Under the pieces are notes generated by a model. The model was not told the DNA's origin, searched no databases, and saw nothing but the letters and a program-made list of their open reading frames with translations. The translations under genes and the position numbers were made by a program. Shown piece by piece: positions 15,126-29,192 of a DNA stretch of 64,000 bases (position 1 is its first letter; each line of letters begins with the position of its first letter). The DNA is from Candidatus Magnetocorallium paracelense (GTDB taxonomy: Bacteria; Nitrospirota; Thermodesulfovibrionia; Thermodesulfovibrionales; Magnetobacteriaceae), in NCBI GenBank assembly GCA_029001845.1, contig JAREWP010000077.1, positions 1 to 64,000 of the forward strand. Direction: 5' to 3'.

Positions 15126-16547
15126 ATGAAAAGACCGCGCAATATTGACAATTTCTTCGATTTTTCAAAGGGGAAGATTATGGTTAATCTTACTAACAGG
15201 TGTAATTTAAAATGCCTGATGTGTCTGGCGGCGGAAGAGGAACACACCTTTACTCTCTCCAGAGAAAAAGCCCTGGAAATTGCCGCTTTTGCAATAGAAA
15301 ACAGATTTCCAAGATTCGAAATATCGGGAGGAGAGAGCCTTATGCTCGATTATACAACGGAGTTGATCGAGGAACTGGCAGGGAAAACGGAGCACATACA
15401 GATAATCACAAATGGCGTCTTTTTAACCAATAATACGATAAACGCACTAAAAGATATTCCCGGCCTTCACGTAGTCGTTTCGATACATGGAGTTGGAACT
15501 ACCCATGACAATATTGTCGGGAAAAGCGGTTCATTTGAAAAAGCTGACAAAGCAGTCAGACAAATGGCGGACTTAAATATGCGATTTTCCATTAATTCCG
15601 TTATTCAGAAGAAAAACTACCGTCAGGTTTATAAAATATACGATTACTTCTCAGATTTACCCTATAACGGCCATTCTCTTACTCCTGTGGAGCCCTGGTT
15701 TGACAATCTTTTAATCCCCCATGAAGACACCGATTGGGTCTTGAATCAGCTCGGAAAAATAGAGAGGTCGTCAAAGGCGAAAAAAAAAAATTTGGTATGT
15801 CGTACAGAATCATTTTCAAAGTATCATGGCTGTACTTTTGCTGATAAAGAAAAAGAGAGAGAAAGACTTTTTTTACATCCCGGTTTTTTATGCTCAGTGC
15901 CCAGACACCTGATTGTCATAAACAATAATGGTGATGTTTTTCCCTGCTATCACCATAAATGGAAAGACTATAAAGTAAACCTTAATCTCGATAAAGGGCG
16001 TTCTATTGAAGACATCGTATATTCCGACAACTATAAAAATATGATAATGAGTGCTACAGGCCTCTTCGGATGCCTGGGCTGTAACACATACTGTTACACG
16101 TGGGACAAGGATTTTGACAGAAAAATCAATAATCCTGATCCCATAGATAAGACAATAACGGAGTTTGTCGAATATTCGAAAAGGGAAGTGAACTCACTGT
16201 GCGTCTCTATGCTCCCGGGCTACGAAGTATTGCGAAGGGGAGTGGAGAAAGCTTTTGGCGCGCAAATATTTATATGGGGAGCAGGTAAGGGTGGAATAAG
16301 GACATTTGATTTGCTGGCTGCCATAGGAAAGAGTGTTTTCGGTTTTATAGACAGCAATGAAAATGTATGGGGCGACAGATTAAGAGATGTTCCCGTCCTC
16401 TCGCCTGCTGTGCTAAACGAATATAAAGAAAAGGGCATCCCCCTTTTTGTTGTCATCGGCTCCGTTCATTCTGAGGAGATCGCTTCGACTCTGAAGGAAA
16501 GAGGATTCAGGGAGAGTATCGATTATTGCACAAATCCCTTAATCTGA
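15126..16547 (+). CDS. Radical SAM/SPASM protein with C-terminal Rossmann-like domain
   Basis: 473 residues. The radical SAM domain opens with VNLTNRCNLKCLMCLAAEE (CxxxCxxC at about 25-33), then ISGGESLM for SAM binding and IQIITNGVFL. A SPASM-type region carries auxiliary-cluster cysteines: FLCSVPRHLIVINNNGDVFP, CYHH, and CLGCNTYCYTWDKD. After about residue 370 a separate fold begins: IFIWGAGKGGIRTFDLL, VFGFIDSNENVWGDRL, PVLSPAVLNEYKEKGIP, LFVVIGS. This looks like the N-terminal nucleotide/sugar-binding half of PglD-like acyltransferases, or the C-terminal domain of some sugar methyltransferases. The fusion suggests modification of a sugar-nucleotide or peptide; the substrate is unknown. AAGGAAAA precedes the start. 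Confidence 0.85.
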   Translation: MKRPRNIDNFFDFSKGKIMVNLTNRCNLKCLMCLAAEEEHTFTLSREKALEIAAFAIENRFPRFEISGGESLMLDYTTELIEELAGKTEHIQIITNGVFLTNNTINALKDIPGLHVVVSIHGVGTTHDNIVGKSGSFEKADKAVRQMADLNMRFSINSVIQKKNYRQVYKIYDYFSDLPYNGHSLTPVEPWFDNLLIPHEDTDWVLNQLGKIERSSKAKKKNLVCRTESFSKYHGCTFADKEKERERLFLHPGFLCSVPRHLIVINNNGDVFPCYHHKWKDYKVNLNLDKGRSIEDIVYSDNYKNMIMSATGLFGCLGCNTYCYTWDKDFDRKINNPDPIDKTITEFVEYSKREVNSLCVSMLPGYEVLRRGVEKAFGAQIFIWGAGKGGIRTFDLLAAIGKSVFGFIDSNENVWGDRLRDVPVLSPAVLNEYKEKGIPLFVVIGSVHSEEIASTLKERGFRESIDYCTNPLI

Positions 16548-20036: not shown

Positions 20037-21488
20037 ATGAAAAAAGATAAAGACATTGTTATGCAGTTTCCCGCTAATCCCGGTTGTTCTCAATGGATTA
20101 CACCCAATGTAAAAAGCTACGCCGGATTGGCGCCTTCCTCAAAACCCGATAGTTTTATAAGAGGTGAACCAGATAGTGAAGAGAATCTCTTTTACTGGTT
20201 TTTTGAGTGCCAAAAATGCAAAGACGAAGATGATGTTACAAATTATCCCCTTACCATCTGGCTAAACGGCGGCCCCGGCGGTCCTTCCACTTACGGACTT
20301 CTCCAGGAAAACGGCCCCTATCTGATGAAAGACGAGGAAAAAGGCGTAATTGTCGAAAACCCCTTTTCATGGAATACTGAAATGCATCTCCTCTATTGGG
20401 ATCAGCCTTATTGGACAGGTTACAGCTATGCATATAAAAACGGTAAGAAGTTGTATGCAAAAAGTGAAGCTCAATTAAGCACTGCTCTCTATTACGCCAT
20501 GGAATATTTCTACGAACAACATCCCCAGTACAGAGAATGCGATCTTTATATTACAGGTGAAAGTTATGCAGGTAAGTACATACCCAATATTGCCTTGAAA
20601 TTTTTAGAGATGAACGATAAAAGAGCAGGAAAACCGATCAACCTGAAGGGAATTGCCCTGGGAGACGGCTGGATGTATCCTGCTATTCAGGTTGCAGGTC
20701 AACTGTCATACGCCTTTGAAATGGGTTTCCTCGATAGGAGGCAATTTAATTACCTGAAAGAGATGAACGATCAATTATTAAAACTAATTGAGAAAGAAGA
20801 TTGGAAAAACGGGTTTAAACTGTGCGCAAAAATCGATAGTTTAATGCTCAAATGCGGAGGCAATCCGGAAATCTACGATGTCAGACGATGGACTTCCCCG
20901 CCTGATTATCTAAACGCCTATTTTGACACGGTAGAAGTAAAAAAAGCCTTAAATGTAAGCCCTTCGGCCATATGGTATTCAGCAGACGATACAGGACCTG
21001 TCCCGGAAAACCTTGTAGACGATAATTTAACCTCTGTTGTCAAAATATTGCATGAGCTGTTAATGAAAGAGACAACGAAGGGAGACCTCCTGCGTATCCT
21101 ATTCTATACAGGAAATTTCGACATGGCCTGTGGGTTCACCGGCACAGAGGAGATCCTCTGGAAATGGATATGGGATCCCGATGGTAATGATGAGATTGGA
21201 CGCCGTTATAGAGAGATGAGAGTAAAATGGCATAAACTCCACCGTCGCGTATGGGGATACAAAGACGATTATAAGAAAACCTATGGCTTTGTAAAGGAAC
21301 TGGACAATTTGATGCAGGTAGTTATCCCTAATTCAGGCCATATGGTTCCCATAAGCCAACCGGAGATATCGCGTGAGATGATATATAACTTTATTTTTAA
21401 GGGGAGTTTTCCGGGTTACGATCCGTTAGACTGCGATTTGCCGTATAAATGGGAGGAGGATGACTGCAAAGAGTCGAGAATCTCCTGA
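20037..21488 (+). CDS. Serine carboxypeptidase (peptidase family S10)
   Basis: 483 residues. Family landmarks: WLNGGPGGPSTYGLLQENGP (oxyanion region; most members have GPGCSS), LLYWDQPYWTGYSYAY, LYITGESYAGKYIPNIAL with the nucleophile Ser, FYTGNFDMACGFTGTEE with the catalytic Asp, and PNSGHMVPISQPE with the catalytic His. All three catalytic residues are present. Family enzymes cleave C-terminal residues at acid pH and are usually lysosomal or secreted eukaryotic proteins. Here no signal peptide is visible, so the protein appears cytosolic. AAAAGGAG precedes the ATG. It lies inside the repeat-bracketed island and has no enzyme partner, which fits acquisition by transfer. Confidence 0.85.
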   Translation: MKKDKDIVMQFPANPGCSQWITPNVKSYAGLAPSSKPDSFIRGEPDSEENLFYWFFECQKCKDEDDVTNYPLTIWLNGGPGGPSTYGLLQENGPYLMKDEEKGVIVENPFSWNTEMHLLYWDQPYWTGYSYAYKNGKKLYAKSEAQLSTALYYAMEYFYEQHPQYRECDLYITGESYAGKYIPNIALKFLEMNDKRAGKPINLKGIALGDGWMYPAIQVAGQLSYAFEMGFLDRRQFNYLKEMNDQLLKLIEKEDWKNGFKLCAKIDSLMLKCGGNPEIYDVRRWTSPPDYLNAYFDTVEVKKALNVSPSAIWYSADDTGPVPENLVDDNLTSVVKILHELLMKETTKGDLLRILFYTGNFDMACGFTGTEEILWKWIWDPDGNDEIGRRYREMRVKWHKLHRRVWGYKDDYKKTYGFVKELDNLMQVVIPNSGHMVPISQPEISREMIYNFIFKGSFPGYDPLDCDLPYKWEEDDCKESRIS

Positions 21489-21519
21489 AATATTTGTTTC
21501 CATCTATAATCCATAGATT

Positions 21520-21706
21520 GTAGGGGCAGACCTATGTGTCTGCCCCACTACGGTACGCCCCGACAAAGGCGTATCATGTGCGGTATCCGGGAAACACACA
21601 TAACGGTTCATCAACACAAATGTGACGGGGTCGAAAACAGGGTGGGGCGAACAGGTGGAATGGTGTCGAAAACGCGAATGGGGCGAACACACAGGTTCGC
21701 CCCTAC
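21520..21706. repeat. REP composite unit 1
   Basis: About 187 bases bounded by two hairpins: GTAGGGGCAGACC.ATGTG.CTGCCCC at the left and GGGGCGAACACACAGGTTCG CCCCTAC at the right. The middle (GGCGTATCATGT, GGGAAACACACATA, TTCATCAACAC) recurs in units 3 and 4. It lies between the carboxypeptidase and the transposase gene. Confidence 0.8.
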
Positions 21707-21743
21707 GATGGGGAAAAGGATTTAACATAAATTTTGCCAGACA

Positions 21744-22406
21744 ATGAAATATAATCGTAACATCTATAATCGTTGTTCCATCAGATTGAAAAATTATGAT
21801 TATTCTCAACAGGGATTCTATTTCCCCACAATATGCACACAGGATCGATTAAACCTGTTTGGTGAAATTGTTGATGAAAAAATGGCGCTCAATGACGCCG
21901 GGCAAATGGTTGAAAAATGGTATCTCGAATTGAAAAACAAATTCCTTGACATCAAACTTCACGATTACATAATCATGCCAAATCACATCCATTTTATCAT
22001 TCAAAACCTAGGGGCAGACCTGAGTGTCCGCCCTGACAATTCGGGAAGATATACAAAGGATCGTGATGAATACACGTCAGGGGCAAACAAATATGTACAG
22101 GGTATGGATAAACACGAACGAAGCCGGTGCGAACAGGCGGAATGGTGTCTAAAACACGAGTGGGGCGAACACACAGGTTCGCCCCTACAGAGTATTGTCC
22201 AATGGTTCAAGACAATGACCACAAACGAATATATACGTAGGGCAAAACAATATGGGTGGCAGCCGTTCCCCGGCAAATTGTGGCAGCGAAATTATTACGA
22301 ACATATCGTACGCAATGAAACATCATATTTAAAACTATCGGAATATATTATGAACAATCCGTTGAATTGGAAAGAAGACGATTATTATGATTCACAAAAT
22401 CAATAA
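21744..22406 (+). CDS. REP-associated tyrosine transposase (RAYT, Y1/HUH type)
   Basis: 220 residues. NYDYSQQGFYFPTICTQDR is the family start, IIMPNHIHFIIQN holds the HUH metal site, and the end WQRNYYEHIVRNETSYLKL, SEYIMNNPLNWKED carries the active Tyr region. Such enzymes mobilise REP hairpins. A complete in-frame REP composite unit (22009-22188) sits inside the gene and encodes about 60 residues (GADLSVRPDN to GEHTGSPLQ) between the HUH and Tyr parts; the family tolerates variable inserts here. No clear ribosome site. The flanks are four composite units plus a decayed second 3' copy. Confidence 0.85.
   Translation: MKYNRNIYNRCSIRLKNYDYSQQGFYFPTICTQDRLNLFGEIVDEKMALNDAGQMVEKWYLELKNKFLDIKLHDYIIMPNHIHFIIQNLGADLSVRPDNSGRYTKDRDEYTSGANKYVQGMDKHERSRCEQAEWCLKHEWGEHTGSPLQSIVQWFKTMTTNEYIRRAKQYGWQPFPGKLWQRNYYEHIVRNETSYLKLSEYIMNNPLNWKEDDYYDSQNQ
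22009..22188. repeat. REP composite unit 2, inside the RAYT gene
   Basis: Begins TAGGGGCAGACCTGAGTGTC and ends GCGAACACACAGGTTCGCCC plus CTAC. Its length of 180 bases is a multiple of three, so it is read through without a stop as part of the transposase. Confidence 0.75.
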
Positions 22407-22411
22407 ATCAT

Positions 22412-22598
22412 GTAGGGGCAGACCTATGTGTCTGCCCCACTACGGTACGGCCCGACAAAGGCGTATCATGTACGGTATATGGGAAACACACATACGTTTC
22501 ATCAATACAAATGTAATGTAGGCAAATCAAGGGGCGGTGCGGACAGGCGGGACGGTGTCGAAAGCGCGTGTGGGGCGAACACACAGGTACGCCCCTAC
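22412..22598. repeat. REP composite unit 3
   Basis: 187-base unit with the same left and right hairpins as unit 1. It starts six bases after the transposase stop codon and is followed by a second, decayed copy of the transposase 3' end. Confidence 0.8.
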
Positions 22599-22716
22599 AA
22601 AATATTGTGCAATGTCTCAAAACAATAACCACATATTAAAAAATTATCGGAATATCTAAATAGCAATCCGTTGAATTGGAAAGAAGACGATTGCTATGAT
22701 TCACATTATCAAAAAA
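22599..22716 (+). pseudogene. Decayed second copy of the RAYT 3' end
   Basis: AATATTGTGCAATG.CTCAAAACAATAACCACA matches the transposase stretch encoding SIVQWFKTMTTNEY. After a deletion of roughly 90 bases, KLSEYLNSNPLNWKEDD CYDS follows, matching KLSEYIMNNPLNWKEDDYYD of the intact gene. So unit 2 plus the gene end was duplicated in tandem as unit 3 plus this remnant. Confidence 0.75.
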
Positions 22717-22720
22717 TTAT

Positions 22721-22907
22721 GTAGGGGCAGACCTATGTGTCTGCCCCACTGCGGTACGGCCCTATAAAGGCGTATCATGTACGGCATCCGGGAAACACAC
22801 ATAGGGTTCATCAACACTAATGTGACGGAGGCGAATCAAGGGGGGGGGCGAACAGACGAGACGGCGTCGAAAACGCGTGTGGGGCGAACACACAGGTTCG
22901 CCCCTAC
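22721..22907. repeat. REP composite unit 4
   Basis: 187-base unit with both hairpins, highly similar to units 1 and 3. It ends 110 bases before the membrane NTPase system. Confidence 0.8.
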
Positions 22908-23015
22908 AATGGGAAAAAAAATGATATAACATAGACTTATAAAACAATTAGGTAGATAGTAACTTTTTATTAATTAGTGAGTAAGAGGTTTCTATCGGAT
23001 AGGAGATTAAAAATC

Positions 23016-24212
23016 ATGTTTAATTATATTCCTTTTGTATTGGTTGTAAATTTAATTTTATTTATAATAATTGTTATATGGGCAACCAAAGTAAAAAATA
23101 AAACACCTAAGTGGCCAGAACCTACAGAAGGACGTATTAAATTTTCTTGGTTTAAATCATATTTTTTTTATTCCATTGCATTTGCTTGTTGTATAGTGTG
23201 CATTCTAACAGGAGTAGATGAGAGCAATATTGTTTTAAAGGATTCTTATCACGAAGAATCAAAATCCATTAGCAATTTAAATGATAATCTATCACAGCTA
23301 ATGAAGGAGCTGAAGAATTTTCAAAATGAAAATATATCAAAAATAAGAGAAGTCAATGATGAGTTATTGGAAAATCTCAATAAAAAGATCAACATAGAAG
23401 AGCACAAAGATGACACAGCTATTAATATATATTCTTTAGAGAAACGAGTGAAGAGGATATTCGTGCCTTATGAAAGAGATGATGTTAAAGAAGATGAATT
23501 CGATAAAGCCATTTATTATATAAAAAATCGATTCCTTGATGAGCTTAAAGTTATAGACAATCACACATTGGCTCAATCTCTTGCAGACAAATATAAAGCC
23601 TTACTTGATGATGCTGAAAAACATTTAGCAGGTATTCTTGAAAAAAAGATTAAAACAATAGAGACACTTATCTATCAGCGTAAAACTTTTAGAAATATGA
23701 CTATTCTAAAACTGATTTTTATCAATTTTCCATTAATTTTAGGCGGCTTAATAGGTATTGGAATAATCATTTATTCTATAACAAGGGATATAAGAGAGGA
23801 AAAAAGTATAAATAAAGAGATAGGTAAGCGAAAGTCTGATCAGTTACTATCTCTTCTTGACTATTATTTTAAGTATAGTTGTATTGATTCTAAGGCATTG
23901 GAGGACTTGAGGATATTTATAAATTCTTTAAATGATTTATCTGGCTTTCGATCAATTGCCTATATTCAGACAAGAATAACTGTTTTACTTAATGAAGATA
24001 GTGAATCATTGTCTGAGATTATGAAAGAACGTCTTAAAGAAGTACGTAGAATGATTGACGACAATAGACATATATTTGAAAAATTTGAGACTCTTAAAAA
24101 AGACTATGACAGGAAGCTTAAAAGCATAATAGATAATATAAAGCCTATTAAAGAGGATGATGTAGTTAATAAAAAATTAAAAGACTATATTGATCTCCTT
24201 ACTCAACAATAA
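23016..24212 (+). CDS. Coiled-coil membrane protein, partner of the large NTPase
   Basis: 398 residues from the ATG at 23016, chosen because ATAGGAGA lies about ten bases upstream; a GTG at 22977 would add 13 residues without a ribosome site. Membrane segments: about 5-25 (VLVVNLILFIIIVIWA), 47-68 (SYFFYSIAFACCIVCILTG) and 237-258 (INFPLILGGLIGIGIIIYSI). Between the second and third, and after the third, the chain is long charged helix with coiled-coil character (SISNLNDNLSQLMKELKNFQ). No enzymatic motif. The stop lies six bases before the NTPase start, so the two are co-transcribed and probably form one membrane complex. A+T content is visibly higher than in the core genes. No family recognised. 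Confidence 0.8.
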   Translation: MFNYIPFVLVVNLILFIIIVIWATKVKNKTPKWPEPTEGRIKFSWFKSYFFYSIAFACCIVCILTGVDESNIVLKDSYHEESKSISNLNDNLSQLMKELKNFQNENISKIREVNDELLENLNKKINIEEHKDDTAINIYSLEKRVKRIFVPYERDDVKEDEFDKAIYYIKNRFLDELKVIDNHTLAQSLADKYKALLDDAEKHLAGILEKKIKTIETLIYQRKTFRNMTILKLIFINFPLILGGLIGIGIIIYSITRDIREEKSINKEIGKRKSDQLLSLLDYYFKYSCIDSKALEDLRIFINSLNDLSGFRSIAYIQTRITVLLNEDSESLSEIMKERLKEVRRMIDDNRHIFEKFETLKKDYDRKLKSIIDNIKPIKEDDVVNKKLKDYIDLLTQQ

Positions 24213-24218
24213 ACAACC

Positions 24219-27200
24219 ATGAAAACTAATAACAATCCGACATTAGATTACTCATCAAAGATAAAGAACATCCTTATCGAGCTTCATGGCTATACTTTTT
24301 TTCACAGTCCCTCAGAAATCGATAACATTGATAAGAGATTTATCGGGCGCAAAGATATTATAGAAAAACTAAAGGCTATATTGACAGATGACGAGACGAG
24401 GTCGGGCTCATATCTGATAGCCAGTTATCGTGGGATGGGCAAGTCAAGTTTTGTAAGCAAAACAATCTCAGAGGTTATTTCATCAAAAAGCAGATCAAGG
24501 ATTTTTTCTCGTTTTTTCAGAATATTGTTACTTTTAATCCTTCTCCCTTTTTTGCAGGTTTTTAATGACCAGACAGAATTCGTCTCATTTGGAATACCTT
24601 GCTCTGTATTTATTCTCTCCTTTTTTTGGTTAGTAATATCGGATCACCATGTCCCGGATCTAAAAAAAGGCTTTTTAGCAAAATCTTCATATTATGCTTC
24701 AATTTCATTAAGAACATTATTGATTGAAAGAGGTGGCATATCAGCCCATAGATTCAGACGATTCGTTCAGGACTTCTATATTCTTTCTATTATACAAATA
24801 ATTGCTCTTATACTCTTCAGCATTACAGATATAGATTCTTTTTCATTCAGAGCCATCGTCTATTTATTTATATTTATATTTTATATACTTATCACTATTT
24901 TTATTAATGAATTGATTGATGCAAAAATAACATCTCTAACAGTAGTGAAGGAGAGCCCTGATTCAATTACATATTTATCGTCGGTTGCAAAAAGAGTTTT
25001 ATCAAAGATATTAAGATACCTGAACTACTCACATCGTGACTGTATAAAAATGAATCTGGGATATGATGACTTGAGAGAAATCGATGTCTTGAGACTCATT
25101 GCCAGAAATATATTGCAGAAATATCAAGAAAAAACCAGCTTTTCTTTTTCATTTCCGGATATGTCAAGCAAAGTCATCAAATTTATACTGCTGTTTTTTT
25201 TGACATCATTTATCTATTACAGCGAGACGATATATAACATTAATCAGGCTTTTAAAGAAACAATTGGTATAACAGATTATTTTCCCAGTCAGAATAGTAA
25301 TGAAAGGAAAAAGCTTATAAAATTTCTTAAGAGAGAAAACACACGGGAAAATCAAGACTTTATTGAAGATTATATCAATGGACAGAGAATTAATAACGAT
25401 GAGCATCCCCCTTTAAAGGTTCTTGCGAGATATTTTGATTTATCTATTTTTACAGCCTATTATAAGCTAATTAACAATATTCCACTTGTAGAAAGCTTTA
25501 AGGAACTGAAATATAATCAGGTAGAACACTACTTTTATAAGAATACAGTCAAATTCAATAACAATTTTATGCTTATCCCTGGTCACATCGACTATTTGGT
25601 GATATTCTATTTCCTGCTCTTTTATATGAGTGCAGGTTTTGTTTTTAGATATCGATTGTTCGGAATTATTACTAATGGGGGTATACTTAAGAAGTTAAAG
25701 TATTTAAATGATTTAATAGATGCTGAGGTAATAAGCGATGATAGCAGGAATATAAATGCGGCAACGTCATCCTATTTTAGAGTCGGCCTTTTTAGTAAAA
25801 AGCAAAAGAACTATCCAAGAGCGGATATTCGTGAAATTGAAAAGCAGTTAATTGAGATATTGAACGATATGGACAGTCTTCCTTTTTTCCTAAGAAGACC
25901 GGAATTTATCTTCATTTTTGATGAGCTGGATAAAATTGAACCCAGAAAATCATCTAAAAATAATGATGCAGCAAAAGACAGTGATCCTGACGAAGAGGAA
26001 CTCTTTTTCTCCACAGAGGGCGCAAGAAGAAGACAGCATACTATTCTGAAACTTCTCTCAAACCTAAAATATCTCTTTACTACAGCCAAATCAAAGTTTT
26101 TATTCATTGCCGGACGAGAGCTGTATGATCTTACGCTTGCAGATGTTTCGGACAGAGATTTTTTTGTCGGTAGTTTCTTTAACGATGTAATCTATGTTGA
26201 CAGCTTTTTAACAGACTCTTCTGATGAAAAATTGGCGGATATTACCAGCATGGCTGAGATGTATGTATGTAATTTTATTTTGCCCTACAAATATCGAAAG
26301 GAAGGGTGCTCACTAAAAGTATATAACAAATACCTGAAGGAATACTTTTCTAAAGAGGAAGATCAGTATTTCGCCAAAGAAAAGAGGAAAAAGATAATCT
26401 TTTGTCTTCAGAATTTTATCACATACCTGACCTACAGAAGCACCGGGTCTCCTAAGAAACTGACACGTTTTTTTGAAGATTATATTGTTAAGAGAGACAA
26501 AGAAGAACTTAAGGACTCTTTGAGAAACCTCCGTGTAGGTTGGAGCTCCAATAGTCTTTACTTATGTTTTGAGCATCATGACCAATATACATTTGGGCAA
26601 ATAACCTATCTTGCAAATCCCTTAGTCTTTTCGATTAACAGAGCGATTAAAGACTTTGGTGATAAGTTGAGAGTGTCGACCACTTTTCTTGTGGACCATA
26701 TATATAAATTTCATGGTTTCGGCTTTTCTTGGCAAAACCTGGAATTAACGCCTGAAGTTGTGGACATTAATAAATCGCCCCAATTAAGAGAAGTCATCGA
26801 AAACATAATGAATTTTCTGTCGAAAACCCATATTCAGGAGATATTTAACGGACTTTACAGATATAAGTTTTCACAAGTAATAGTTGAGGAAATATCTTAT
26901 CTGTCAAAAATATCTGAAAAGGAGTCTGCTGCCTTTAATTTTACTCTCGATGAATCTTTAATGATCGACCGTCACTATAAAAAACAACTAAAGCATCTCA
27001 ATTCAATATACAAAGATGAAAAGGGAAATGAAAAGAGTAATAACCTGAAATCTTCAATCGTATATACTCATCTGATACTGGGGGATCTCTATTTTTATGA
27101 TGAAAAATATAATGACGCGATTATAGAGTATTTGGAAGCAACTAAAAATCTCCCCATTAAGCATGATGAGTCTAACAATCTTCTAATATTGATTATACTT

Positions 27201-29192
27201 AGCAGATTAAAGCTTGGATTCGCCTATGAGAAGAACAAAGATTATAAATCAGCTTTAATTGTATATGGAGAAATTTCAGGTTTTGTATTTTCAATCTTTA
27301 AGGACAAGAAAGAGGCGTTTATTAGAAAAAATAATATTAAAAATTTACGTGGCTTGGATCAGTTTGAATATTTTTGTAATTATTCCTCATTTGAAAGTAT
27401 ACGACTTTTATATCAACCACTTTTGGCTAAGTTTCATGTTATAGAGAAGAGCAAACTAGGAGGTATTACATGGAAAGAAATAAATGAAATCGAAAAAGAG
27501 ACTAAACTTATAATAAAGATTATAGATCCACATGACAGGCCTTTAATAGAATCGGAGATACTGAATAAAATTGGAGATATCTTATATTATAAAGGCAGCA
27601 GATTATCAGATTTTGATTGGGAGGTGTACTGTTGTGGAGCTTCTGAAGATGTCTTGTGCTTTCCTAACAAGTTAATTCTGGAAAATATTAAGAATAAGGT
27701 TAATAAGTATGATTCCAGAGTACCCTGTGCTGCATGCCTTCATTATATGAAGGCTTTTAAAATCGTGTGCCATGATTATTTTGAAATTCCCTTTGAGAAG
27801 TTGAATAACAGAATCATCCTTTCTCTCTTTAAAAAACTCGAAGTTATTCATACTAACCTGCATATTCCACAAAAATCAATTCTTATTAAGAGTGTGGGGA
27901 ATCTGTTGTCAGATATTGGAGATACATTCCTGTCATGTACACTTGACGATGAGGATTTGCAAAAGAACGGCTTTCTTGATCTGTTTCTTGATATTGTAGA
28001 TGAGGAGTCTTATGGTAAAAAGGCGGATATGATTGAGAGATATATTGAGAATCCAAAAATAAATCGGAAAAGTTTAAATAAAATTGAAGAGGTTTTTTTA
28101 TATTATTATCTATCCGCAATATTTTATCAGCACGCCAGTGAACTGAATGAAAGCTCCTTCCAGATTTTGAAAATTCTTTATACTATCAGAGGTTGTATAG
28201 GGCAAAATTTAAAAGTAGAAACCATGACAGAAGAGATTGTGAATAGAATAGGGAGTACTATTGTCAAAAGGGCGCTAAGGGGATATTATAGGACATACGA
28301 TAACATTAGCAGAAATGAAATAAAAAAATTCGAAAGTATATTTGACGATATAAAACAAAAGGACTTTTTAAATAATATATCTCTGAGTTCAGATTATAGG
28401 GAGGTTATTGCTACATACAACGATATCAGATTAAGATCAAAGAAAATAGAGCTTTCAATGAGTACTACTTTTACTTCACCATATCTGAATGTTAATAATA
28501 TGTATAACAGAGTGCTTGAGCTCAGATTCAAAACCGATCTTAATTTAAGATTTTTTGAGCAGCTGGGATTTGATTCTTTGGATGAAAAAATGGGGATAAC
28601 TCGATTTGTATCGCTTTTTCATGGTCAAAATCGGAAGATCAAAAAGATATTCGGCAAGGAGTTCGATGCGAGAGCGGCAATGGAATATCTAATAACGGAC
28701 TCAATCTACTGTTTACATGAGCTTATTAAGATTCGTCTAATCTTCAATATAACTTATAATATAAATAACTATGTTATTGCCAAAATTCACTTTGATCTCT
28801 CTATATGGTGCTCTTATTATTATGCTTATTGCAATTTAAGCGAAGAAGATGATAAAAGTAGGATTACCGAGTTGCTTACTTCACTGATCGGCTCTGACAG
28901 TATGGACACAATCGATGAATACTATCATCTTGAAAAGGCCTTAGAACACAGCTATGCTGAGTTAGAGACTCACAGCGAAGGCAGGACATACAGAAATATG
29001 ATAGAAAAGATGTATTACCTGAATGATGACTTTAACGATAATTTATACCATTTTTTCGCCGGCATGGACAGATATAGGATTAACTCAGGCAGGATAAATA
29101 AAATAATTAAAGAGGTGAAAGAAAAGCTAAAGGATTCTAAGCTATATGATGTGCAGCCATATTTGGATGTAAAGCGTGAGGGCTTATCGTAG
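24219..29192 (+). CDS. Giant membrane-embedded AAA-like NTPase with TPR-like C-terminus
   Basis: 1657 residues. It opens with RFIGRKDIIEKLKAIL, the N-terminal signature of AAA_16/STAND-like ATPases, then a P-loop SYRGMGKSSFVSK (65-80, with Ser in place of the first Gly). Six hydrophobic segments follow (about 101-118, 122-141, 187-203, 209-231, 318-340, 457-478), then Walker B FIFIFDELDKIE (563-574), and a sensor-2-like RSTGSPKKLTRFFEDY near 740-756. From about 950 the chain is helical and includes a TPR-like ILGDLYFYDEKYNDAIIEYL. Membrane helices inserted between Walker A and B recall KAP NTPases, but the N-terminal motif is AAA_16-like. I infer a membrane sensor or defence NTPase; the function is not established. 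Confidence 0.8.
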   Translation: MKTNNNPTLDYSSKIKNILIELHGYTFFHSPSEIDNIDKRFIGRKDIIEKLKAILTDDETRSGSYLIASYRGMGKSSFVSKTISEVISSKSRSRIFSRFFRILLLLILLPFLQVFNDQTEFVSFGIPCSVFILSFFWLVISDHHVPDLKKGFLAKSSYYASISLRTLLIERGGISAHRFRRFVQDFYILSIIQIIALILFSITDIDSFSFRAIVYLFIFIFYILITIFINELIDAKITSLTVVKESPDSITYLSSVAKRVLSKILRYLNYSHRDCIKMNLGYDDLREIDVLRLIARNILQKYQEKTSFSFSFPDMSSKVIKFILLFFLTSFIYYSETIYNINQAFKETIGITDYFPSQNSNERKKLIKFLKRENTRENQDFIEDYINGQRINNDEHPPLKVLARYFDLSIFTAYYKLINNIPLVESFKELKYNQVEHYFYKNTVKFNNNFMLIPGHIDYLVIFYFLLFYMSAGFVFRYRLFGIITNGGILKKLKYLNDLIDAEVISDDSRNINAATSSYFRVGLFSKKQKNYPRADIREIEKQLIEILNDMDSLPFFLRRPEFIFIFDELDKIEPRKSSKNNDAAKDSDPDEEELFFSTEGARRRQHTILKLLSNLKYLFTTAKSKFLFIAGRELYDLTLADVSDRDFFVGSFFNDVIYVDSFLTDSSDEKLADITSMAEMYVCNFILPYKYRKEGCSLKVYNKYLKEYFSKEEDQYFAKEKRKKIIFCLQNFITYLTYRSTGSPKKLTRFFEDYIVKRDKEELKDSLRNLRVGWSSNSLYLCFEHHDQYTFGQITYLANPLVFSINRAIKDFGDKLRVSTTFLVDHIYKFHGFGFSWQNLELTPEVVDINKSPQLREVIENIMNFLSKTHIQEIFNGLYRYKFSQVIVEEISYLSKISEKESAAFNFTLDESLMIDRHYKKQLKHLNSIYKDEKGNEKSNNLKSSIVYTHLILGDLYFYDEKYNDAIIEYLEATKNLPIKHDESNNLLILIILSRLKLGFAYEKNKDYKSALIVYGEISGFVFSIFKDKKEAFIRKNNIKNLRGLDQFEYFCNYSSFESIRLLYQPLLAKFHVIEKSKLGGITWKEINEIEKETKLIIKIIDPHDRPLIESEILNKIGDILYYKGSRLSDFDWEVYCCGASEDVLCFPNKLILENIKNKVNKYDSRVPCAACLHYMKAFKIVCHDYFEIPFEKLNNRIILSLFKKLEVIHTNLHIPQKSILIKSVGNLLSDIGDTFLSCTLDDEDLQKNGFLDLFLDIVDEESYGKKADMIERYIENPKINRKSLNKIEEVFLYYYLSAIFYQHASELNESSFQILKILYTIRGCIGQNLKVETMTEEIVNRIGSTIVKRALRGYYRTYDNISRNEIKKFESIFDDIKQKDFLNNISLSSDYREVIATYNDIRLRSKKIELSMSTTFTSPYLNVNNMYNRVLELRFKTDLNLRFFEQLGFDSLDEKMGITRFVSLFHGQNRKIKKIFGKEFDARAAMEYLITDSIYCLHELIKIRLIFNITYNINNYVIAKIHFDLSIWCSYYYAYCNLSEEDDKSRITELLTSLIGSDSMDTIDEYYHLEKALEHSYAELETHSEGRTYRNMIEKMYYLNDDFNDNLYHFFAGMDRYRINSGRINKIIKEVKEKLKDSKLYDVQPYLDVKREGLS

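Follow-up and report, generated by a model that had tools for sequence, protein, structure and literature searches.

The KAP nucleoside triphosphatases (NTPases) are recognised by membrane helices lying between their Walker motifs. STAND immune proteins known to date are for the most part soluble and signal through an effector that is either fused to them or recruited. RdrA of the RADAR system and the ORC/Cdc6 systems have no membrane helices and act with different partners. Among the KAP-family NTPases, Tmn is described as having two unusual transmembrane domains and an unexplored mechanism (PMC11846954), and it is compared here by this description only. We describe a locus of Candidatus Magnetocorallium paracelense (genome G000; 6.0 Mb in 103 contigs) located at positions 23016–29192 of contig JAREWP010000077.1, the first 64,000 nucleotides of which constitute the window analysed here and numbered throughout. 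At this locus, a gene for a 398-residue membrane protein is followed by a gene for a 1657-residue NTPase. The large protein very probably belongs to a family, rare and so far without a name, of signal-transducing ATPases of the AAA_16 (STAND/ORC) type that are embedded in the membrane, a judgement that covers both family and architecture.

The large gene occupies 24219–29192 on the + strand, which carries all features of the pair, as established from the list of open reading frames (ORFs) and the homologue alignment. Approximately 38 residues that match no family precede the AAA_16-like Walker-A half (residues 39–92, 24333–24494; profile matches and alignment), which includes RFIGRKDIIEKL and, further on, the P-loop SYRGMGKSS (residues 69–77); no N-terminal effector or adaptor domain was found. 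A first membrane insert of four hydrophobic segments follows (residues ~93–230, 24495–24908; hydropathy), leading to a conserved strand and helix of the P-loop domain that reads RDCIKMNL...EIDVLRLIARNI (residues ~268–308, 25020–25142; structure model and hydropathy). The second insert (25176–25628; hydropathy and alignment) consists of segments 5 (320–338) and 6 (452–470) arranged around a hypervariable loop. Beyond it lie Walker B, FIFIFDELDKIEP, with the core FDELDK (residues 563–575, 25905–25943; alignment), a sensor-1-like strand KFLFIAGRELY (residues 626–636, 26094–26126; structure model and alignment), the sensor-2/lid-like motif RSTGSPKKL (residues 740–748, 26436–26462; alignment) and an all-helical, tetratricopeptide repeat (TPR)-like C-terminal region (residues ~950–1657, 27066–29192; Pfam, model and fold matches). 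The motifs SYRGMGKSS, FIFIFDELDKIE and RSTGSPKKL, picked out in a preliminary description made from the DNA sequence, are all present in the window protein and align across homologues.

That description had also counted about six hydrophobic segments. Hydropathy averaged over eight aligned homologues gives exactly six, all between the Walker motifs and the same six as in the window protein (~99–117, 121–139, 186–204, 210–228, 320–338 and 452–470). The hydropathy and alignment show that two membrane inserts interrupt the P-loop domain. Because each insert has an even segment count (4 and 2), the two halves of the domain should share one side of the membrane. It follows from the same even count that the segment 5–6 loop would face outward. 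Pairwise conservation is ~0.5–0.76 around the P-loop, Walker B and sensor blocks, and 0.02–0.07 over much of the length of this loop, which varies from 88 to 313 residues among homologues.

Family assignment was assessed with the AAA_16 (PF13191, gathering cut-off 32.6 bits) and KAP (PF07693) profiles. The AAA_16/STAND-like start suggested in the preliminary description was recovered over the cut-off in four homologous loci (G001:C98, 37.1 bits; G007:C4, 34.9; G010:C77, 34.0; G010:C120, 32.6), with the window protein itself scoring 16.7 bits, under the cut-off. In profile–profile comparison, the Walker-A half matched AAA_16 at an E value of 1.5e-9 versus 5e-7 for KAP, and the Walker-B half gave no significant match to either. 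AAA_16/STAND ATPases with TPR tails, such as MalT, Avs and NLR-like proteins, resemble the family in the Walker-A half, by the over-cut-off matches of the four homologous loci, and in the order of NTPase, lid and TPR solenoid. They differ in that two membrane inserts divide the P-loop domain of the present family, that no N-terminal effector domain precedes it and that its Walker-B half has no detectable similarity to AAA_16. The NTPase of the large protein can be read as a putative AAA_16/STAND/ORC-type domain with KAP-like membrane inserts.

The STAND arrangement of an NTPase followed by superstructure-forming repeats is also seen at the C-terminus, which had earlier been called helical or TPR-like. 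Pfam TPR_2 is detected there at E 8e-4, below its cut-off, and the model of this region, composed of helices only with a mean predicted local distance difference test (pLDDT) score of 53, matches TPR solenoids at Z 9–11 (LGN, 11.4; kinesin light chain, 11.2; MalT domain III, 9.1). These weak models and profiles show a probable TPR-like solenoid of ~700 residues, the last 180 of which are among the better conserved parts of the protein. The AlphaFold model of residues 1–1024 is poor (mean pLDDT 42), and its best fold matches are weak, with RdrA (8hra, Z 6.2, root-mean-square deviation 7.6) tied with ORC (6.2) as representatives of RADAR and ORC/Cdc6-type AAA+ proteins, followed by TnsC (5.7) and also CED-4 (Z ≤ 6.2); we take these as hints only. 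No KAP chain is named among the fold matches listed for residues 1–1024, a result that carries no weight. In the Magnetobacterium casense homologue (L018 12682–13785), the frame runs on into a segment that matches the C-terminal domain of alpha-amylase (PF07821, E 4e-9), either a fusion specific to that lineage or a read-on.

Members of the family, the window protein included, were found at 11 gene loci. G000 has two of them (C2 and C9); G001 (where the gene is split between two contigs), G007 (Candidatus Magnetobacterium casense), G010, G014, Roseivirga FE80, G308 (split), G468, G743 and G1056 have one apiece. Fragments of the large gene are present in G000:C12, G005, G010:C77 and G1058. The carriers belong to the Magnetobacteriaceae (Nitrospirota) and to the Bacteroidota, members from the latter having been found by an alignment-based scan. 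Identity is 34–42% over the full length in Magnetobacteriaceae and falls to 28% in Bacteroidota; because homologues are 34–42% identical along its length, the 1657-codon frame is not a chance one. Of 296 genomes sampled in the phylum, the other 293 have no member, nor do ~99% of sampled Bacteroidota; within genus g3, three genomes that are complete or nearly so lack it. In the tree, the Magnetobacteriaceae copies group together (96/97) and the two G000 copies branch deep from each other. When the window protein was used as a single-sequence query, nothing was retrieved from plasmids, phages, PDB sequences or genome contigs, and the family profile likewise had no match among PDB sequences; scanning viral sequences with the alignment yielded no member either. 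A magnetosome function was considered and rejected, one member residing in Roseivirga, which is not known to be magnetotactic. The G000:C12 fragment (L023 2497–3102) is a lone C-terminal piece, 51% identical over 181 residues, and adjoins small toxin–antitoxin-like ORFs, the antitoxin being named from a reading of its sequence.

The small gene (23016–24212, +; 398 residues, ORF list) starts with ATG at 23016, downstream of a likely ribosome-binding site, AGGAGA (23001–23006, +); an alternative GTG start at 22977 would yield 411 residues. Both ORFs were found where the preliminary description had placed them, with six bases separating the end of the small gene (24212) from the ATG of the large gene (24219). 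No separate ribosome-binding site is evident for the latter, the translation of which is probably coupled to that of the small gene. The small protein is helical and has the three membrane segments previously ascribed to it (residues 5–23, 49–67 and 234–252); residues ~68–230 are predicted to form an extracytoplasmic helical domain and the C-terminus a charged helical region. Family profile searches returned no match above threshold, CHASE3 and TarH giving weak, sub-threshold matches only. Comparison to PDB sequences gave coiled-coil matches at chance level only, and relatives were found neither in plasmids nor in IMG/VR nor in 19 Magnetobacteriaceae genomes.

A second partner gene (ORF L020 5970–7109) lies beside the G000:C9 copy and ends 4 nt inside the start of the large gene. 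Its product is ordered as membrane segment, helical domain, membrane segment and helical tail, a layout similar to that of the window partner, with sequences that are barely alike (z 2.5 against block shuffles, with 9 of 500 as good); no relatives of it were found in the other family genomes searched. A membrane/coiled-coil partner is thus seen at 2 of the 11 loci, both in G000, and most homologues stand alone. Because neither partner has relatives in the searched family genomes, and none of the genes adjoining other homologues resembles either, the pairing with a small protein is local to the window lineage. The gene pair is present in the window, and the two-gene system originally proposed does not extend to the family: homologues do not stay paired, 9 of 11 loci having no such partner.

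The location of three relatives leads us to favour, by a little over an even chance, a role for the family in conflict or phage defence. The Roseivirga copy starts at a distance of ~200 bp from divergently oriented type I restriction genes (HsdM), and the same run encodes Septu PtuA/PtuB (E 2e-92 and 6e-76) along with a PDC-S26 protein and two DNA methylases. The G468 copy has PycC (E 5e-108) ~5 kb upstream on the same strand, and PycTM (6e-23) beyond an insertion sequence. Pycsar and Septu therefore share loci with two homologues as separate systems, of which the large protein is not a component. In G308, a patatin-like phospholipase gene lies ~64 bp upstream of the homologue on the same strand, with weak defence-gene matches alongside. 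The third relative is that of G014, in which the large gene sits between a DUF1848-like gene and purL (both named by reading of their sequences). The sister genome G002 is devoid of the large gene and has flanks 91–92% identical to those of G014: homology on the left stops at L021 3262, ~35 bp short of the stop codon of the large gene, and 130–140 bp of the upstream region survive, 5.6 kb apart from purL. Encoded in this 5.6 kb slot are a type IIG restriction enzyme, matched at E 1e-272, and an OLD-type ATPase similar to AriA/GajA. The purL-side slot is an apparent defence hotspot in Magnetobacteriaceae. In G002, the type IIG enzyme and the OLD/GajA-like ATPase (L114 1620–6584) are inserted at a base-precise junction beside purL, and a weak TIR-effector match lies past the left flank on another contig. 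The defence link that the preliminary description had raised as a possibility is visible at relatives' loci: known defence genes clearly lie close by in Roseivirga, G468 and the G014/G002 slot and, apart from the weak matches in G308, were not seen elsewhere, the window included.

Our best reading, to which we give a little less than even odds, is a membrane-embedded STAND-like switch that probably acts in abortive-infection defence. In such a switch, the catalytic and TPR parts would all be cytoplasmic, the fast-evolving outward loop between segments 5 and 6 would provide a sensing or specificity surface, and the TPR region would bind an infection-related or target protein. ATP-bound protomers could then oligomerise, and the bundled membrane helices might damage the membrane and so abort the infection, a mechanism that we put forward tentatively. 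Alternatively, a locally encoded protein may act as the effector, for example the patatin phospholipase beside one homologue. In the window genome, the small protein might serve as an envelope-spanning coiled-coil co-sensor or adaptor co-produced with the switch, an element that most relatives do without. Several observations weigh against a defence switch of this kind. No defence gene adjoins most of the loci (including those of the window, G743, G1056 and the Magnetobacterium casense type), no recognisable effector domain was found in the large protein, and the co-sensor role of the small protein is proposed from its layout alone. The mean pLDDT values of the NTPase and C-terminal models also make the fold matches weak. 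Finally, the first P-loop glycine, retained in every homologue covering the position, is Ser69 in the window protein (24423–24425), a detail missing from the preliminary description; as a consequence, ATP binding might be impaired in the window copy.

The placement of the membrane inserts between Walker A and Walker B raises the question of whether the family is instead a KAP NTPase lineage that has diverged strongly, on the side of PifA, QatA and Tmn, and that would perform KAP-like phage exclusion at the membrane. The family displays the KAP trait of membrane segments inside the NTPase domain, and its Walker B, DELDKIEP, resembles the KAP DDLDR-PE (both fitting D[DE]LD[RK]), as GSPKKLTRFFE resembles the KAP xPRxIKRF motif; the Walker-A half also aligns with KAP profiles, as given above. 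However, the Walker-B half does not do so significantly, the PF07693 search of the window genome does not report the window gene at E 1e-3, and one of eight family members reaches no better than E 0.0065 with that profile. Seven genuine KAP proteins of this phylum, taken as a positive control, all match PADLOC PifA and/or QatA, with best matches from E 3e-19 (weakest) to 5e-140 (strongest), whereas the eight family members give no match to these models even at E 10. The 4+2 arrangement of segments and the long TPR tail further distinguish the family from KAP NTPases. We consider a KAP origin unlikely, in keeping with the earlier proposal of an undescribed membrane-embedded NTPase, which by profile (PF07693, PifA, QatA) falls outside the characterised KAP family. 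If the design, with membrane helices built into a P-loop switch, arose separately in the AAA_16/STAND/ORC branch, the protein would be an immune switch of the NLR-like kind, acting as its own membrane effector and using its hypervariable external loop as recognition surface; this full scenario is doubtful, if a little less so. Were it true, a membrane-built STAND/AAA_16 switch with an outward fast-evolving loop and a TPR tail would suggest a sensor and membrane effector combined in one protein. It would also parallel, independently, the KAP defence proteins, among them Tmn with its unexplored mechanism (PMC11846954). The large protein has no match in NCBIfam or, at E 1, in PADLOC, and the family would thus escape current defence annotation.

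An envelope-stress or developmental ATPase of large free-living bacteria, fed by the small protein as a periplasmic receptor, would account for the many loci among housekeeping genes (the genes flanking the pair in the window are also of this type), and the small protein is indeed laid out as a bitopic receptor, with its predicted extracytoplasmic domain, charged cytoplasmic helix and sub-threshold CHASE3/TarH matches. Such a signalling role sits poorly with the absence of this receptor-like partner from 9 of the 11 loci, with patchy presence within the genus and remnants in G000, G005 and G010, with the replacement of the large gene by restriction genes in the same slot and with the defence-rich sites in two Bacteroidota, and we regard it as improbable. 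Maintenance of a selfish element, for instance superinfection exclusion by an integrated element, would be consistent with a RAYT-like transposase and REP-like repeats directly upstream of the pair and with the low G+C content, which characterises the family at every locus (in the window, 28% for the small gene and 33% for the large gene versus 40% for the remainder). Against this, no relative of the family was detected in 72,556 plasmids, 50,697 phage records or IMG/VR contigs, and no integrase or element boundaries were seen at the window locus; we judge this option very unlikely. The mobile A+T-rich island of the preliminary description is A+T-rich, a property shared family-wide, while its mobility is not demonstrated at the window, where a RAYT-like transposase lies nearby and the flanks are of housekeeping type.

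The region just upstream of the pair (21439–22953) contains an IS200-like Y1 transposase ORF (21744–22406, PF01797), which is surrounded by and itself contains REP-like repeats. A 270-nt repeat is present three times, and TAGGGGCAGACCTATGTGTCTGCCC occurs four times together with inverted partners. The whole looks like a RAYT with its repeats. Further upstream, a serine carboxypeptidase S10 (20037–21488, E 3e-81) lies downstream of genes for a multihaem cytochrome c and a phosphatidylserine decarboxylase. A radical SAM/SPASM protein at 15126–16547 matches prokaryotic viperin models weakly (E 9e-16), which most likely reflects generic radical-SAM similarity.

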